A DNA stretch of 64,000 bases, from positions 310,001 through 374,000 of the forward strand of contig JAOTYL010000002.1 in the NCBI GenBank assembly GCA_029861865.1, written 5' to 3'. Shown here piece after piece: positions 21,640 through 30,762 of this stretch. The translations under genes were made by a program, and so were the position numbers. This DNA is from Myxococcales bacterium (GTDB lineage: Bacteria; Myxococcota_A; Polyangia; Polyangiales; Houyiibacteriaceae). The notes beneath the pieces were generated by a model that was not told the DNA's origin, did not search any database, and saw only the letters and a program-made list of their open reading frames with translations. How positions within the stretch are numbered: the first letter of the stretch is position 1; each line of letters starts with the position of its first letter.

Positions 21640-21726
21640 CAGTGCTCGCTTTCGTGAGGTCGGGAGCCTATCACGCCCAGCCCAACCCGCAGGCTCTCGA
21701 TGCGTTCTTTTGCTACCAGGAACCCG

Positions 21727-23205
21727 ATGGCATTGAGCCGGGGTCCCAACGGAGCTAGGTTCACCTTTGTGAGGTGGGTTCGAATCCCTCGGTTGAGCTT
21801 TCGCGGCTTCATCGTCGCCAGTGTGCTCTTGTGCACGGCGCAGGTGACCCTCGGTCAGAAACCGAGCCAGACGGGGTACCGACCAGCGCCGAGCGCGAAT
21901 GAGCCGAGCGACGTTCAGCCTCTCCCGCTCGAGGCGCCGCCGGGCAGCGAGGTGGTGGTCATCGGGATCGATCGCACGGTCGAGCTCGGGCTCGCGGCGT
22001 TCGTGCGACGCGCGATCGCTACACATCCGGACGCCGTTGCCATCGTGCTCGAAGTCAACACGTTGGGCGGGCGCGTCGACGCAGCGATTCAAATCCGTGA
22101 CGCCCTTTTGGAGGCCGCGCCGCGCACCGTCGCCTTCGTACATCCCCGGGCGATCAGCGCAGGTGCCCTGATCGCACTTGCGTGTGACAACATCCTGATC
22201 AGCGACGGCGGAACGATCGGTGCCGCAACGCCGATTCAAGCGAGTGGCGGACAGGCCGAGGCCGTCGGCGAGAAAATGGTCTCGTACATGCGAGCCGAGA
22301 TGCGTTCGACAGCCGAAGCCAACGGGCGTCGCGGCGATATCGCCGAGGCGATGGTCGACCGCGAGGTCGTCATCAAGGGGATCGTCAAAGAGGGCAAGCT
22401 TTTGACCCTCGACACCGACCGGGCGATCGACCTCGGGATCGCCGACGGCAAGGCGGCCAATCTCGATGCTGTCATGGAGTCGTTGACGCTGAAGGACCCG
22501 GTGATCGCGCAAGTAGAGCTCAACTGGGGTGAAGAAATCGCACGGTGGCTGACCGAACCGACCGTGAGCGGTTTGCTTCTTTCAGTCGGCATGCTGGGGC
22601 TCATGATCGCGTTCTACACGCGGAGCGTCGGGCCGTTCACCGTCGCGGGCTTCCTGGCACTCGCGTTGTTTTTCGGTGGGCACGCGGTCGTCCATCTCGT
22701 CGGGTGGGAAGAGGCACTCCTCTTCATCGCCGGCGTCGTGTTGGTGGTCGTCGAGATCTTCTTCGTGCCCGGTCTCGGTGTTCCCGGCGTGCTCGGTCTC
22801 ATCTTCGTCATTGCGTCATTGGTGCTCGCCCTGATCGGCATCCCAATCGACGTCTCTTTCAAGACCGGGGTACTGGCCGATGCGATGACCCGAGTGATGT
22901 TGTCGCTCTTGGGAGCCTTCGTGCTTGCGCTGGTCACCGGTCGTTTGTTGTCGAAAACCGCGATGGGCCGAGCCCTCGTCCTTGAGGAAGCCGAAACCGG
23001 TTTTCTTTCCGCCCCCACCGCATCGGATCTCGTCGGTCAAATCGGTGAAGCGCTCACCGACCTTCGGCCCGCCGGCAAGGTCACCATCGCTGGGGTGCGT
23101 CACGAGGCGACCAGCGAGCGTAAGTTCATCGCGCGAGGCGCGCGTGTCCGGGTGATCGGGCGGGACGGGCCAGCGCTGATCGTACGACCCGAGGATGAGT
23201 CGTGA
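21727..23205 (+). CDS. nfeD: NfeD-family membrane serine protease (long form)
   Basis: 492 residues from the ATG at 21727, which has AGGAA close upstream; an ATG at 21700 would add nine residues. A signal peptide ends near TAQVTLG. The ClpP/SppA-like domain contains ISAGALIALACDNILI with the likely nucleophile Ser and GGTIGAATPIQ. Several membrane segments follow (about 280-420), then a C-terminal OB-fold NfeD domain (EAETGFLSAPTASDLVGQIGEALTDLRPAGKVTIAG). Long NfeD proteins act with stomatin/flotillin-type partners. It starts an operon with nfeD2 and floA. Confidence 0.92.
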   Translation: MALSRGPNGARFTFVRWVRIPRLSFRGFIVASVLLCTAQVTLGQKPSQTGYRPAPSANEPSDVQPLPLEAPPGSEVVVIGIDRTVELGLAAFVRRAIATHPDAVAIVLEVNTLGGRVDAAIQIRDALLEAAPRTVAFVHPRAISAGALIALACDNILISDGGTIGAATPIQASGGQAEAVGEKMVSYMRAEMRSTAEANGRRGDIAEAMVDREVVIKGIVKEGKLLTLDTDRAIDLGIADGKAANLDAVMESLTLKDPVIAQVELNWGEEIARWLTEPTVSGLLLSVGMLGLMIAFYTRSVGPFTVAGFLALALFFGGHAVVHLVGWEEALLFIAGVVLVVVEIFFVPGLGVPGVLGLIFVIASLVLALIGIPIDVSFKTGVLADAMTRVMLSLLGAFVLALVTGRLLSKTAMGRALVLEEAETGFLSAPTASDLVGQIGEALTDLRPAGKVTIAGVRHEATSERKFIARGARVRVIGRDGPALIVRPEDES

Positions 23206-23672
23206 CCGCGGTTGTTGTCGTCGCCGTACTGGTCTTGGGCCTGCTTCTTCTTCTCGCGGAAGTCGCGATCGTGCCCGGCTTTGGCGTAGCGGGCGTCTTA
23301 GGGATGCTCGCACTCGCCGCGGGAGCGATCGCCGCATGGACGGAGCTCGGTCCGTTTTGGGGCACCGTGACTGGTGGAGTTTCGATCATCGCGGCCGGCG
23401 TGATGCTCTACGTCATCCCCAAGAGCAGAGCCGGACGGCGGATGGTTCTCGAACACAGCCAAGCAGAGGCTGTGTCCCAAGAAGATCGCAGCGATCTCCT
23501 GGGGCGTCGCGGCATCACAGTCACTCCTCTTCGGCCTATCGGTCGTGTTCGCTTCGGGCACGACGAAGTCGATGTCATGACCGAAGGCGAATACATCGAG
23601 TCCAATCAAGAAGTCGAAGTCATGACGGTGGAAGGCCCACGTGTCGTCGTACGCACCCCAGATTCAACGTAG
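23202..23672 (+). CDS. Short NfeD-family membrane protein
   Basis: 156 residues. The GTG start overlaps the preceding stop by 4 bp. Two or three hydrophobic segments are followed by an NfeD OB-fold (LLGRRGITVTPLRPIGRVRFGHDEVDVMTEGEYIESNQEVEVMTVEGPRVVVRT). It lacks the protease domain of the long form. Short NfeD proteins such as YuaF of Bacillus are made with flotillins, which fits floA 12 bp downstream. Confidence 0.92.
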   Translation: MTAVVVVAVLVLGLLLLLAEVAIVPGFGVAGVLGMLALAAGAIAAWTELGPFWGTVTGGVSIIAAGVMLYVIPKSRAGRRMVLEHSQAEAVSQEDRSDLLGRRGITVTPLRPIGRVRFGHDEVDVMTEGEYIESNQEVEVMTVEGPRVVVRTPDST

Positions 23673-23684
23673 GAGCAAAATCCC

Positions 23685-24674
23685 ATGGTCCCATTCTCAG
23701 TAATCGGCCTCGTTTTCGTTGCAGTCCTCATTCTGTTCTTCCTGTTCGTGTGGGTGATCCCCATACGTCTCTTGATCGCGGCATGGTCGAGCGGCGCGTG
23801 GGTTGGCCCTGGGGAGCTGATCGGGATGCGGCTGCGTCGAGTGCCCCCGGGAAAGGTCGTCAACCCTCGCATCGCCGCGGTGAAAGCGGGGATCGACCTG
23901 CCGACCAACACCTTGGAATCTCACTACCTGGCCGGAGGCAACGTAGACCGCGTCGTGACCGCGTTGATCAGCGCTGACAAGGCTGGCATGAAGCTCGGTT
24001 TTCAACAGGCGGCCGCGATCGACCTGGCAGGTCGTGACGTGCTCGACGCGGTACAAACGAGTGTCAATCCGCGCGTGATCACGACGCCGAAGATCACCGC
24101 GGTGGCCAAAGACGGCATTCAGCTGCTGGTGGTGACCCGGATCACGGTGCGCTCCAACATCGATCGACTGGTCGGAGGCGCGACGGAAGAAACCGTCGTC
24201 GCACGCGTCGGCGAGGGGATCGTTTCGACGATCGGTTCTTCGGCGAACTACGCGGAGGTCCTCGAGAACCCCGACACGATCTCGAAGAACGTTCTCGCAC
24301 GCGGTCTCGACAGCGGCACCGCATTCAACATCCTGTCGATCGACATTGCAGACGTCGACGTCGGCACGAACATCGGCGCCAAGCTGATGACCGAGCAGGC
24401 CGAAGCGGACAAGCAAGTCGCTCAGGCGCGCGCCGAGGGTCGAAGGGCTCTCGCCGTTGCAGCAGAGCAAGAGATGCGGGCCAAAGTCGAAGAGATGCGC
24501 GCGCACCTCGTCGAGGCAGAGGCGAAGATTCCCCAGGCGATGGCCGACGCGCTCAAGGAGGGCAACCTCGGAGTCATGGACTACTACAACCTGCGCAACG
24601 TCGCCGCCGACACCGATATGAGGAACGCGATCAGCAAGGCGACCGGAGGTCCGGACGATGAAAATCAGCCCTAG
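23685..24674 (+). CDS. floA: Flotillin-like protein FloA
   Basis: 329 residues. An N-terminal hydrophobic hairpin (about 5-30) is followed by the SPFH-like core [55 protein letters not shown], characteristic of FloA/YqfA. The C-terminal part is an Ala/Glu-rich coiled coil (about 235-290: [28 protein letters not shown]). FloA organises membrane microdomains. AGGAG lies about 10 bases before the ATG. The two nfeD genes upstream complete the usual partnership. Confidence 0.95.
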
Positions 24675-24816
24675 GGCGCCAGTCCCCTTGGAGGCGCTGC
24701 TCGCACAGCCGCGACGTTTCGTTGCGCGACTGGTGCTCGCGGAGCTGCTCGCCAAGCGCGGCGCTGGTCCGCTGGAACGGAAGGCGCTGATCTACGGAAG
24801 GCGCCCCAAGCGCTGA
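24658..24816 (+). CDS. Small basic 52-residue ORF
   Basis: The reading frame starts at an ATG 17 bp before the floA stop and ends 6 bp before the metalloprotease-like gene. The protein begins [21 protein letters not shown] and is rich in Leu, Ala and Arg. It could form an amphipathic helix ([20 protein letters not shown]). Its position, bridging the only gap in a tight operon, is the main reason to call it. I do not recognise a family. Confidence 0.5.
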
Positions 24817-24822
24817 AAGCTG

Positions 24823-26445
24823 ATGGAGGAGCTTTTCAAAGACTGGATCGCTGCGATCGCGGTGTTGGTCTACCTCCTCTATCCGCTGCTGAAGCGCTGG
24901 CTCGATCGACGGAACAAAACCGAACGGCCTTCGACGCGGAAAGAGCCTTCAGAGGCACGCGCACCTCGACGCAAGCCCGCAGCAGCTTCGCGGCCGGAGC
25001 CTAGTTCTCCTACCCCTACTCGCCCTACTCCCCCTCGGCCGGCGACGATGCCTCGCGCACGCGAAGGCGATATCATCGCGACGACCCAAGTACGTGCGAA
25101 GCGGCTTCGGGAACAAGCCACCGCCCTGCTTCGGCGCGCCGAGGCCGACCCTCGTTTGGTTCGCCTGGTCCGAGCGCTCCGCGACGACCTACTCGGCAGG
25201 CTCGCCATCATCGACCGGTCTTTGGCGGGCAAGCCCACGGTGTCGACCGTCATGCAAGAAAATGCCGTCATTCAGGGCCTTCAGCAGCTGCTGAAGTACC
25301 TAGATCGGATGGCGGCGCAGCGACTGCATGGCTCGGCTTCGATATTGGGCGACGCGGACGCCATGGCGGACGCCTGTTACGCCCCCCTCCTCGCGTTTGC
25401 GAACGCGCACGGCCTCGACTTGCGTACCAGCACCCCCGTTGTGGTGAGCGGCGATTGGGCCTTGTCGATCGTGCCGCGCTTTGCGTCGACCCGGGTGGCT
25501 CCGCTGAGGCTCCCGAGGGGCTTTGGTCGTAGCCTCTGGTTATGGCCCGCGATCGCTCACGAGATCGCGCATGACCTCTACTACAGCGTCGACGGTTTCG
25601 AAACCGATCTCCATGAACGTCTGAACCTGCCGCAACGTCTGTCTGCACCCAGCTCGGAGCGCGAGATCGACCCGGCATGGCTTCGTCAGCTCTTCGGAGC
25701 ATGGCTTGCCGAGGTGTTCGCCGACACGGTGGGCACCCTCATGCTCGGCCCCGCGTACGTCGAGACCATGCGACGCGCCTTTCGGGAGCCCGACTCCGCG
25801 CACCGCACCTCCGCGATCTTTACGAGCAACGGCTGGATCGACGAGCATCCTCCCGCACGCCTGCGCCTCTACATGGCGAGCCGTGTGTTACACCACTTGG
25901 GCCGCCACCAGGAGGCCGACTCGCTCTGGGCGCTTTGGGAAGCCGAACATGCCGAGGTAGGGCTCTACTATCTCCCGCTCGCCGGCCAGTGGGTAGGTTT
26001 GTCCGACGAGTCGTTACATGCCCTTGCCGACTCGATCGTCGACACCCTGCTCGGGCAGTCTTGGCCAGAGCTCGCTGACTTCCAACTGATGAACATCCCT
26101 GGGTTCGCGTACTTGCACGCCGAGCACGCCGAGACTCAGCGATTGCGCGCCGAGCTGGCACGCGGAGAGACCGTTCGCGCCGACATTCGTTGGATCATGG
26201 CGGCTGCAGTCCTCGCGGCTTCGGAGCAACCCGTGCTACACAATTCAATCCTCGATGCTGCGCGCCGTTCGATCATCGGGATCGGAACCGAGAAACGACG
26301 CGCAGAAGAGCCAAAGGCCGTCCGCCCTCCAACCGGCGCGATCGGGGACACTCTCGTCGCCTCCCTGCGTCAGCCGCGGGCGATTCGAGAGGCGATCATC
26401 TTGGGCGAGGCAATCCGGCCCTATCATGCACCCAGATGGCGCTGA
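24823..26445 (+). CDS. Membrane-anchored HEIAH protein, putative zinc metalloprotease
   Basis: 540 residues. An N-terminal membrane segment (about 6-23) is followed by a basic Pro/Ser/Thr-rich spacer (about 30-80) and a large soluble domain. HEIAH at 246-250 is a zincin HExxH motif. About 47 residues later AEVFADTVG offers Glu297 and Asp301, the ExxAD arrangement seen in several gluzincins such as M48. The C-terminal 200 residues look helical. I do not recognise the family. Protease activity is inferred from the motif alone. It is the last gene of the nfeD-nfeD2-floA operon, 6 bp after the small ORF. Confidence 0.7.
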   Translation: MEELFKDWIAAIAVLVYLLYPLLKRWLDRRNKTERPSTRKEPSEARAPRRKPAAASRPEPSSPTPTRPTPPRPATMPRAREGDIIATTQVRAKRLREQATALLRRAEADPRLVRLVRALRDDLLGRLAIIDRSLAGKPTVSTVMQENAVIQGLQQLLKYLDRMAAQRLHGSASILGDADAMADACYAPLLAFANAHGLDLRTSTPVVVSGDWALSIVPRFASTRVAPLRLPRGFGRSLWLWPAIAHEIAHDLYYSVDGFETDLHERLNLPQRLSAPSSEREIDPAWLRQLFGAWLAEVFADTVGTLMLGPAYVETMRRAFREPDSAHRTSAIFTSNGWIDEHPPARLRLYMASRVLHHLGRHQEADSLWALWEAEHAEVGLYYLPLAGQWVGLSDESLHALADSIVDTLLGQSWPELADFQLMNIPGFAYLHAEHAETQRLRAELARGETVRADIRWIMAAAVLAASEQPVLHNSILDAARRSIIGIGTEKRRAEEPKAVRPPTGAIGDTLVASLRQPRAIREAIILGEAIRPYHAPRWR

Positions 26446-26487: not shown

Positions 26488-29400
26488 ATGCCCCTCGCCG
26501 GCTTTCACCCTGCCGTGGCTACCTGGTTCGACCGCACCTTCGGCCAGCCGACGCCACCGCAAGTGGAAGGCTGGCCGGCGATTCGCGAGGGACGCCACAC
26601 ATTGATCGCCTCACCAACAGGGTCAGGCAAGACGCTGGCGGCCTTCCTTTGCGCGATCGACGACCTCGTTCGGCAGGGTCTCGACGAGGGGTTACCCGAA
26701 CGGGTGCAGATCCTCTATGTGTCGCCGCTCAAGGCGCTCAGCAACGACATCGAGCGCAATCTCCAAGCGCCTCTGGAAGGGATTCGCGGCACGCTCGAGG
26801 AGCTGGGGTTCGGCGACGTGGACATTCGAACGGCGGTGCGCACCGGAGACACCCCGTCACATCTCCGGACGAAGATGGTGAAATCGCCACCGCACATCTT
26901 CGTCACGACCCCCGAATCGCTCTACATCTTGCTCACCAGCGAAGGCGGGCGGCGAATGCTGTCGGATGTGAAGACGGTGATCGTCGATGAGATCCATGCA
27001 GTCGTCAGCAACAAGCGGGGCTCTCATCTGTCCCTGTCGCTCGAGCGGCTTCAGGAGCTAGTGGGTCGCGACATCACCCGCATCGGCCTATCCGCGACGC
27101 AAAACCCGATCGAGCAGGTGGCCCACTTCCTGGTGGGTGCAAACGAAACCGATGACGACGAACCCCCCTGCCGAATTGTCGACGTCGGCCATCAGCGCGA
27201 GATGGATTTGGCTGTCGAGATGCCTGGCTCGCCGCTCGAGACGGTCATGTCGCTCGAGGTATGGGATGAAATCTATCAACGGCTGGCCGCGCTCGTCGAA
27301 GCACACAACACAACGTTGATCTTCGTCAACACGCGGCGCCTCGCCGAACGGGTGACGCGACATCTGGGCGAGCTGCTTGGCGAAGACGCGGTGACGTCCC
27401 ACCACGGAAGTCTCGCACGTAAGCACCGACTCGAAGCCGAGCGGCGCCTGAAGTCGGGAGAGCTCCAGGCCGTCGTCGCGACTGCCTCGCTCGAGCTCGG
27501 GATCGACGTGGGCGACGTGGACCTCGTATGCCAACTCGGCTCGCCCCACTCGGTCGCAGCTTTCCTTCAGCGCGTGGGTCGCTCCGGTCACTGGCATGGC
27601 GGAACACCCAAAGGCCGGCTTTTCCCGCTCAGCCGCGACGACCTCGTCGAGTGCGCTGCGCTCATGCGCTGCGTGCAGCGCCGGGAGCTAGACCGCATCG
27701 AGATTCCCGGGGGCCCACTCGACATTCTCGCACAACAGATCGTCGCCAGCGCCGCCGCCAAAGAGGAGTGGAGCGAGGACGCGCTACTCGCGATGATTCG
27801 GCGTGCATGGCCCTATCGGACCCTCGACAAAGAGACTTTTGGCCAAGTGGTTCGGGTGCTGTCTGACGGATTCGCCACCAGCCGCGGGCGTCGCGGGGCA
27901 TTTCTGCATCACGACGAGGTGAACCGTCGGATTCGCCCGCGGAGAAGTGCCCGACTCACGGCGATCACCAATGGAGGCGCGATCCCCGACACATTCGACT
28001 ACGAGGTGCGGCTGGAACCCGAGGGACTTCGGGTGGGCACATTGAACGAAGACTTTGCCATCGAGAGCATGTCGGGCGACATCTTCCAGTTGGGCAACGT
28101 TTCATACGAGATTCTAAGGGTCGAGCCGGGGGTGGTCCGAGTCGCGGACGCTCGCGGCAAACCGCCAAGCCTTCCGTTTTGGTTCGGGGAGGCACCTTCT
28201 CGTGCCGACCTCCTGTCGACTTCGGTGAACGCCATTCGCGAAGGCATCGAAGCCAGTGATCACGACCTCGTCACCGTGATCGACTGGCTCCAGCAAGAAA
28301 CCGCTATCGTCGAATCCGCTGCAAGACAGGTCGCCGAGTACTTGCTCGCCTCGCGCACTGCTCTCGGCGCGATGCCAACCCGCGAGACAGTCGTGCTCGA
28401 ACGTTTCTTCGATGAAACCGGCGCCATGCATCTAGTCGTCCACGCGCCCTTTGGCAGTCGGATCAATCGAGCATGGGGGCTCTCGCTGCGCAAGCGCTTC
28501 TGCCGAAGCTTCAACGTCGAGCTTCAAGCAGCGGCCACCGAGGACGCGATCGTTCTCTCTCTCGGCCCGACGCATAGCTTTCCACTCGAAGACGTTTTTC
28601 GGTTCCTGCGCGCCGACAACGTCCGGGACGTGTTGATCCAAGCGATGCTAGACGCGCCGATGTTCCAAACACGCTGGCGTTGGAACGCGACGCGGGCCTT
28701 GGCAATCCTTCGATTTCGAGGCGGGAAGAAGGTCCCGCCGCCATTCCAACGCATGCAAGCCGACGACCTGTTGGCCCTTTGCTTTCCCGACCAGGTGGCT
28801 TGCCTCGAAAACGTCGCCGGCGATCGAGAAATCCCCGATCATCCGCTGGTCCGCCAAACGATCGAGGACTGTCTGCACGAGGCCATGGACATCGAAGGCC
28901 TCGAGGCACTTCTCCGGCGATTGCAGGCAGGCGAGCTGACCCTGCTGGCCCGCGATCTGACCGAGCCCTCGCCCCTGGCCCAGGAGATTCTCAACGCGAA
29001 GCCGTATGCGTTCCTCGACGATGCCCCCCTCGAAGAGCGTCGTACACAAGCCGTAATGTCGCGGCGCTGGCTCGACCCCTCCCAAGCATCGGATCTCGGA
29101 GCGCTCGACCGGGCAGCGATCGACCGCGTCCGCGGAGAAGCATGGCCCGAGCCTCGCGACGCCGACGAGTTGCACGACGCGCTCTTGATGCACAACTGCT
29201 TCACCGACGAAGAGGTCAGCACCGGCCAATGGCTTGGCTGGCTCCGCGATCTCGAGGCGTCGGGCCGCGCCACCCGTTTCGCCGCGGCCGAGCGTACCTC
29301 GTGGACCGCGGCCGAGCGACTTCCGATGGTGCAGGCTGCCTGGCCCAATGGCAGCACCCCAACCGACGTGGTGGTTCCCGAGCGGCACCGTCGGGAAGCA

Positions 29401-30762
29401 TGGACACGAGACGAAGCGATCCGGGAGGTCGTGCGAGGCCGTCTTCAAGCGTCGGGTCCGGTTACCGCAGCCTCGGTTGCGCGCATCCTTGGGCTCGAGC
29501 CGGACTTGGTTGCCGCGGCCCTTGCGAGTCTCGAAGGCGAGGGCTTCGTCCTTCGAGGCATGTTCTCACCGGAGGCGACCGCGACCGAATGGTGCGAGCG
29601 CGGCCTCTTGGCGCGGATTCACCGGTACACGCTCAACCGGCTTCGGAAGGAGATCGAAGCGGTCACCGCGGCGGATTTCATCCGCTTTCTCTCAACTTGG
29701 CAACACGCCGCCCCCGACAGCCGCATGGATGGGCCCGAGGGGCTGGCCGTTCTCATCGAACAGCTCGAGGGCCTGGAAGCGGGGGCCGCAGCTTGGGAGT
29801 CAGACATCCTGCCGACGCGGATGGAAGGTTACGATCCGAGTTGGCTCGATAGCCTTTGCATCTCGGGGCGCGTGACGTGGAGTCGTCGCACACCGCCTAC
29901 AGGGCGCGCATCGAGCCCAATTCGGACCAGCCCCGTCGCCTTTTCGCGCCGCGAGCGCGCGCGCAGCTGGCGCTTTCGATCGGTGGGCGACGAGCCGACG
30001 TCGAGCAACGCAGCGATCGCGCTCGAGGTCCTGCGTCGCGCCGGCGCGAGCTTTTTCGACGACATCGTGCGCGAAACCGGGCTTCTGCCGACGCAAACCG
30101 AAGAAGCGCTCGGCGAGCTCGTTTCTCTCGGGCTCGTAACTGCCGACGGCTTTACGGGGCTTCGAGCCCTATTGGCACCGGACCCGAAGCGACGACGGCG
30201 CGGCCGGCGCGCGGCAGCCGCGTACAGCATGGAAGCGGCCGGCCGTTGGACGGTCCTACCCGACGCACCCGAAGAGCACGATGTCGAGAGCGTCGCTTGG
30301 ACCCTTTTGCGCCGGTGGGGTGTCGTGTTCCGGCGACTCCTCGATCGCGAGGGGGACCTGCCGCCGTGGTATGCCCTCCTCCGCGTCTATCGCCGTCTCG
30401 AGGCGCAGGGTCGCATTCGAGGCGGCCGGTTCGTCGCCGGTTTCGCAGGTGAGCAGTACGCCCTCCCCGAAGCGGTCACGGCGCTGCGCAAGTCCCGCCG
30501 CAAACAGAAGTCCGGTGAGCTCATGTCGATCAGCGCGGCGGACCCCCTCAATCTGGTCGGCATCCTGACCCCCGGAGCTAGAGTCCCTTCGACGCCCAGA
30601 AACCGGATCCTCTTCCGAGACGGCGTTCCAATCGCTTTTCATGAAGGAAGCGAAACGCACTTCTTGGAGGATCCCGAGGACCAGCGTTGGGCGCTCACCC
30701 AAGCGCTACGCCGTCAGCCCGTTCCACGCGCGGTCCAGGCGTATCTTGGAAGCCGTCCGTAG
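26488..30762 (+). CDS. lhr: Lhr-like ATP-dependent DNA helicase
   Basis: 1424 residues. Walker A SPTGSGKT is at 42-49, DEIH in [18 protein letters not shown], motif III LSATQNP, and motifs IV-VI in [17 protein letters not shown] and [23 protein letters not shown]. The Lhr winged-helix and beta-barrel core follow, with a long C-terminal region (Lhr-CTD, about 900-1424). Lhr is a 3'-5' superfamily 2 helicase linked to DNA repair. The length is near that of E. coli Lhr (about 1538). It begins 42 bp after the HEIAH gene and could be part of the same transcript. Confidence 0.95.

Follow-up and report, generated by a model that had tools for sequence, protein, structure and literature searches.

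Gene organization of the floA operon

In the window analyzed here (the whole 64,000-nt stretch of DNA from a Myxococcales bacterium), two NfeD genes and the flotillin gene floA are followed by a gene for a membrane-anchored protein with a HEIAH motif, which raises the question of whether a second, zinc-dependent protease serves flotillin microdomains beside the serine protease carried by NfeD. As described in the first-pass annotation, translation gave a genuine ORF of 540 aa with an ATG start, in which H246, E247 and H250 lie within HEIAH (246-250) and E297 and D301 within the ExxAD-type motif EVFAD (297-301). The features of the operon are listed in Table 1.

Table 1. Features of the floA operon and of the 540-residue protein in the window
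Feature	Positions	Strand	Basis
NfeD1b: extracytoplasmic ClpP-like Ser/Lys protease domain, membrane domain and OB-fold C-terminus	21700..23205	+	PF25145 (5.7e-48), PF24961, PF01957
Short NfeD: membrane and OB-fold domain, without protease	23202..23672	+	PF01957 (6.2e-13)
FloA flotillin	23685..24674	+	PF12127 (1.1e-151); NF010186 (1.2e-155)
Small ORF, 52 aa, motif-bearing	24658..24816	+	Present in all 10 close relatives; pS/pN; equivalents in distant operons
Putative membrane-anchored M48-like zinc metalloprotease-type protein, 540 aa	24823..26445	+	Motifs, conservation, profile comparison
N-terminal hydrophobic segment, residues 9-27	24847..24903	+	Kyte-Doolittle mean 1.69
HEIAH (H246, E247, H250): putative zinc ligands and general base	25558..25572	+	Sequence conservation
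EVFAD: E297, putative third ligand; D301, kept in most degenerate members too	25711..25725	+	
DEHPPARLR, residues 340-348, including H342	25840..25866	+	
C-terminal tail motif PRAIREAIILGEAIRPYHAPRWR, residues 518-540	26374..26442	+	Likeness to small-ORF motif and to post-floA tails in other phyla
Lhr-type helicase	26488-30762	+	Starts 42 nt 3' of the 540-aa gene

The long gene had been described as following the flotillin genes with almost no gap; its ATG lies 148 nt from the floA stop codon, but the interval is filled by a small gene of 52 codons, absent from the ORF list, which shares 17 nt with the end of floA and leaves 6 nt between its own end and the ATG. This small ORF evolves as coding sequence (pS 0.49, pN 0.20, both computed without the part that overlaps floA) and is kept in the same frame in 10 relatives; it had zero family matches. 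The first-pass annotation names neither this small gene nor the C-terminal tail, the HPP motif and the likeness to M48 that are described below. A 148-nt untranslated leader for the 540-aa gene was considered and rejected, because the space between the two genes codes for the small ORF. Most domain-bearing operons of the Myxococcota have an equivalent small ORF at this place, between floA and the long gene.

Scanning of genome contigs identified 10 relatives of the 540-aa protein with 56-88% identity, in records labelled Myxococcales, Polyangiaceae, Deltaproteobacteria or uncultured bacterium. Across these 10 relatives, the gene is under purifying selection (mean pS 0.58, pN 0.20), and wherever the contig reaches, floA lies upstream in unchanged order. 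On the 3' side, the order of the 540-aa gene and the Lhr-type helicase gene is held in several relatives (L001, L002, L004, L005, L006 and L009), and about 3.4 kb of extra DNA separates the two equivalents in the closest relative (L010:9618-13031).

Conservation of the gene beside floA

Of 377 genomes sampled from the phylum, 45 contain FloA (PF12127). An iterated profile of the family was searched against 1095 ORFs (≥150 aa) from 44 floA loci and gave 30 matches, each of which is the ORF directly 3' of floA; none occurred elsewhere among the 1095 ORFs. The contig stops just past floA at 8 of the 44 loci, leaving 36 with downstream sequence. Six loci without a profile match were judged by eye with the motif already known, and they are weaker evidence than the profile matches. 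Locus L063 encodes a shortened degenerate member in which the anchor, FADAVG...G and the tail are still visible, and L083, L090, L091, L094 and L095 encode short post-floA proteins (128-199 aa) that run from a hydrophobic N-terminal segment through a linker to the tail, with no domain. The short proteins of L090, L091, L094 and L095, which belong to the same order and to genomes of 10-13 Mb, measure 128-151 aa and end in DVRRAILL(G/A)xLLG(P/R)PRGAD.

A protein running from anchor to tail is thus encoded 3' of floA, in the same direction, at 36 of 36 Myxococcota loci with downstream sequence; 31 of these contain the domain (counting L076, which is only partial at a contig end) and five encode short forms. 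Retention of the gene beside floA, which the first-pass annotation had set as a check, was accordingly observed at 31 of the 36 loci, with the short form in the other five. This adjacency persists at 17-33% identity across about ten families. A scan of IMG/VR with FloA as the query returned no relatives. A paralogue with HEVGH, E and HP motifs was observed at L025:6599-8032, in a genome where FloA was not found; no tail motif was seen in its translation and no anchor was evident.

Possible relationship of the domain to M48 peptidases

Profile searches with the 540-aa protein gave no match in Pfam, NCBIfam, PHROG, PADLOC or PDB sequence families, and the family profile likewise matched no Pfam, NCBIfam or PDB family, in agreement with the earlier view that the family is unrecognised. 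A lone weak match to M78 (0.07) in one member and matches to GST_C_2 (0.02-0.3) were judged to be chance.

The motif spacing (HExxH, 46 residues, ExxAD, 40 residues, HPPxxLR) recalls M48 peptidases. Comparison by hhalign of residues 200-420 of the intact members with 23 M48 proteins from Myxococcota genomes gave a probability of 75% and a score of 43.3, with HExxH, ExxAD and HPPxxxR in register. Among 100 nulls, in which all columns save those around HExxH were permuted, the mean score was 32.4 (s.d. 1.45, maximum 36.7) and none of the 100 reached 43.3. The HExxH of M48 is present as H246-H250 in 22 of 39 members, and H342-P343...R348 forms an HPxxxR-type motif aligned with the HPP..R of M48. 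These sequence comparisons suggest an M48-like domain. PF01435 (M48) had no match up to E 10 in any of 26 members, and we therefore use the term M48-like rather than claim M48 membership.

AlphaFold2 models, built for the full-length protein and for residues 84-492 with 11 sequences each, were of low confidence (pLDDT 56 and 63). Foldseek and VIA-align searches with these low-confidence models gave no informative structural match; the VIA-align rows mainly cover the helical residues 84-175.

The known M48 proteins HtpX, Ste24 and BepA (PF01435) share with the 540-aa protein the succession of motifs (HExxH first, then ExxAD, then HPPxxxR) and an association with the membrane, and HtpX has a role in quality control. 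The 540-aa protein differs in lacking a PF01435 match, in its apparent single N-terminal anchor where HtpX has membrane helices, and in its C-terminal tail motif.

Putative active site and its repeated loss

Among close homologues (n=11), H246, E247, H250, E297, D301, H342, P343, L347 and R348 are invariant, and the putative active-site residues are also kept in 11 more distant members with 22-33% identity. The layout of HExxH and ExxAD is therefore not a product of chance. When 39 members were compared (identity down to 17%), H246, E247, H250, E297 and H342 were all kept in 22, while the other 17 retain zero to two of the five residues; no member has three or four. E297 and H342 are intact in 22 of 22 members with an intact HExxH, and where HExxH is lost, E297 is lost in 16 of 17 and H342 in 15 of 17. 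D301 and R348 persist in 15 and 14, respectively, of the 17 members without HExxH. Loss of the five residues together, with D301 and R348 retained, would be expected if the five made up a single catalytic site and the other two had a part in the fold. In these alignments, H246, E247, H250, E297 and H342 behave as one site. The earlier suggestion that H246, H250 and E297 form one site was thus upheld by co-variation, which adds H342 as an extra member; the low-confidence models speak neither for it nor against it.

The degenerate and intact sets are true homologues (hhalign probability 100%, E 1.9e-45). Degenerate members align poorly, and the co-loss pattern is strong in count with few independent events: the tree has seven changes of site state, three of them forced by well-supported branches, and the three supported independent pairs of co-loss are below the number needed for a significant sign test. 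One member of the window's own genus (L080:5150-6754) has AEVGR in place of HExxH and Q in place of H342, with E297 kept; its sequence possibly reflects a recent decay that is perhaps still partial.

The positions equivalent to Ser153 and Lys192 of NfeD1b, which we take, by alignment with the known PH1510 protease, to be the catalytic dyad, are occupied by Ser and Lys in each of the 35 homologues from the operons for which these positions align; the row of L090, where the positions are uncovered, was left out of this count. This constancy, set against the eroded metallo site, indicates that the operon retains its serine protease everywhere and the metalloprotease-type site in some lineages. 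Since the gene still adjoins floA where the site is eroded (17 of 39 members), proteolysis cannot be its sole role. The proposal of a second, zinc-type protease as a flotillin partner holds insofar as the domain is present in the operon, but it finds no support as a general rule.

Membrane anchor and C-terminal tail

A hydrophobic segment lies at the start of all members; in the window protein, a linker of low complexity that is basic and rich in Pro comes after it and extends to about residue 80. The net charge of the window protein is -2 before residues 9-27 and +6 within the 25 residues after them, a signal that varies within the family. By the positive-inside rule, the +6 charge would place the domain in the cytosol, and the predicted orientation is N-out/C-in. 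FloA lies on the cytosolic side, and the protease domain of NfeD1b lies outside the membrane according to NfeD topology.

Nearly all members end in a hydrophobic, helix-like LxxA(I/V/L)(I/V/L)LxxxL followed by P/R-rich basic residues, which in the window's protein reads PRAIREAIILGEAIRPYHAPRWR, and the small ORFs bear a related motif (e.g., RRFVLSEVLGPPLG). A PSSM of the tails was trained outside the window's genus, and the tails of 222 unrelated ORFs at these loci served as background. With this matrix, 25 of 28 small ORFs exceeded the 95th percentile of the unrelated tails, and 22 of 22 had the same register; with the direction reversed, the cut-off was exceeded by 16 of 28 tails. The Mann-Whitney values (6e-16 from tails to small ORFs, 6e-11 in reverse) are overstated because the rows are related. 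The window's tail ranked in the top 0.9% against the 222 unrelated tails when the PSSM came from distant members. A genome-wide profile search built without the window's genus gave nothing significant and did not recover the window's tail and small ORF at E 10; when the window's rows were included, these were the top two hits by construction. The motif is therefore too short for finding other clients, and the likeness of the small ORF to the tail is claimed for genes in this position and not as evidence of common descent.

Post-floA proteins with anchor, linker and tail and without the domain were also found in Paenibacillus (161 aa, ending ...LRQAIVWSEVLGPPRAKRPWRSKS), Listeria innocua (150 aa, ending ...LQEAIITKEILDKPVSLRKNHL) and Acetoanaerobium (201 aa, ending ...LKRAVIMKEIIDRPLSMRNLRKF). 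In Bacillus subtilis, the corresponding place is taken by yqfB, which together with yqeZ and yqfA belongs to a sigma-W operon (PMC3498285). In the Bacteroidota examples (Parabacteroides and Bacteroides), floA is followed by a nucleoside phosphorylase rather than by a protein of the 540-aa or tail type.

Proposed role and alternative explanations

With moderate confidence, we propose from these sequence features that the 540-aa protein is a cytosolic, membrane-tethered M48-like protease, or in many lineages a pseudoprotease, of the FloA/NfeD assembly, to which it is perhaps docked by its tail. Its predicted architecture comprises an N-terminal anchor, a low-complexity linker, the M48-like domain (HExxH, ExxAD and HPPxxLR) and the C-terminal tail motif; anchor and tail would hold the domain at the cytosolic face of the FloA/NfeD microdomain. 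In Staphylococcus aureus, FloA and NfeD bind each other and hold unfolded clients without ATP (PMC11222466), and the SPFH complex HflKC binds and works with the membrane metalloprotease FtsH (PMC13086221). Where the site is intact, as in the window, the domain would cut membrane-protein clients, or the cytosolic portions of these, that are held unfolded by FloA/NfeD and that the assembly cannot return to their fold. This cutting would need no ATP and would take place on the face opposite the serine protease of NfeD1b. In lineages with an eroded site, the domain would stay as a non-catalytic subunit that binds clients or partners. For the 540-aa protein, we infer zinc, proteolysis, the cytosolic side, FloA/NfeD binding, the clients and a quality-control role.

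A more tentative extension, which we rate somewhat below this proposal, is that the tail shared by post-floA proteins across phyla constitutes a flotillin-docking code that recruits them to FloA/NfeD. The Myxococcota would then carry, between anchor and tail, an M48-like domain that makes the protein an ATP-independent protease for membrane quality control at the cytosolic face, across from the serine protease of NfeD, and later losses of the site, several times over, would have produced pseudoprotease adaptors.

The ancestral and common role may instead be non-catalytic: a metalloprotease fold would have given rise to a subunit that serves as a flotillin scaffold or binds clients, and the intact site in the window's genus would be an ancestral feature that was retained but matters little. 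This is unlikely, but it is the most probable of the alternatives: the site was lost in 17 of 39 members, on at least three and probably about seven occasions, without the gene leaving floA; members without the site keep the anchor, the fold residues D301 and R348 and, in most cases, the tail; the window's own genus includes one such loss (L080); and short forms that lack the domain fill the same position. Against it, 22 members have all five residues exact and none stands at three or four, a sign of selection for a working site in the members that retain it. We consider it rather improbable that the protein is a maturation enzyme that processes products of its own operon (the C-terminus of FloA, the product of the small ORF or the tail of the protein itself) instead of clients. 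The strict operon linkage and the likeness between the small ORF and the tail of the 540-aa protein would fit such an enzyme, and there is a precedent in the long NfeD PH1510, which cleaves the SPFH protein PH1511 encoded next to it (as cited in PMC13086221); the small ORF, however, persists in operons with a dead protease site, and no cleavage site is identifiable.

Finally, the HExxH could be accidental or part of a non-peptidase metal site, and the gene order could be mere operon inheritance within one phylum with no tie to flotillin. The family has neither a library match nor a structure, and the HEVGH paralogue at L025 occurs in a genome in which FloA was not found. We regard this explanation as very improbable: against it stand the all-or-none pattern of the five residues, the three motifs in register with M48 and the adjacency kept at 17-33% identity in about ten families, and the translation of the paralogue has neither a tail motif nor an evident anchor.

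Comparison with known systems and biological implications

That NfeD and flotillin share an operon with a third gene is already known. FloA-NfeD operons (SPFH5), such as yqeZ-yqfA-yqfB of B. subtilis and floA-nfeD of S. aureus, resemble that of the window in having a long NfeD with a ClpP-like protease followed by FloA, and in Bacillus a gene of unknown function comes after FloA (PMC2636767, PMC3498285, PMC11222466). In the Firmicutes operons examined, the post-FloA protein has 150-201 aa and consists of anchor, linker and tail, whereas that of the window has a protease-like domain, and the window's operon adds a small ORF before the long gene. A limited literature search found no earlier description of the tail motif, of a third gene with a metalloprotease-type domain, or of such a domain decaying repeatedly.

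The HflKC-FtsH system offers a further parallel: there, too, an SPFH scaffold is paired with a zinc metalloprotease at the cytosolic face of the membrane, which in the present case is putative. FtsH is an AAA+ ATP-dependent enzyme, whereas the 540-aa protein gave no match to an ATPase domain and none to the FtsH sequence. In pseudoproteases such as the iRhoms, the catalytic residues are gone while the gene and its context persist. The loss of the site with retention of the gene in the present family is alike, although fold and setting are unrelated.

For the action of flotillin microdomains on their clients, the 540-aa protein, as a proposed dedicated third component that bears a protease-like domain, is a concrete candidate partner. 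It is kept beside floA in the sampled Myxococcota and is paralleled by the short tail-bearing proteins of the Firmicutes, and its tail is a short motif that is a candidate for binding FloA or NfeD. The repeated loss of the site in genes that are retained provides natural variants that may separate a scaffold role from a cutting role.
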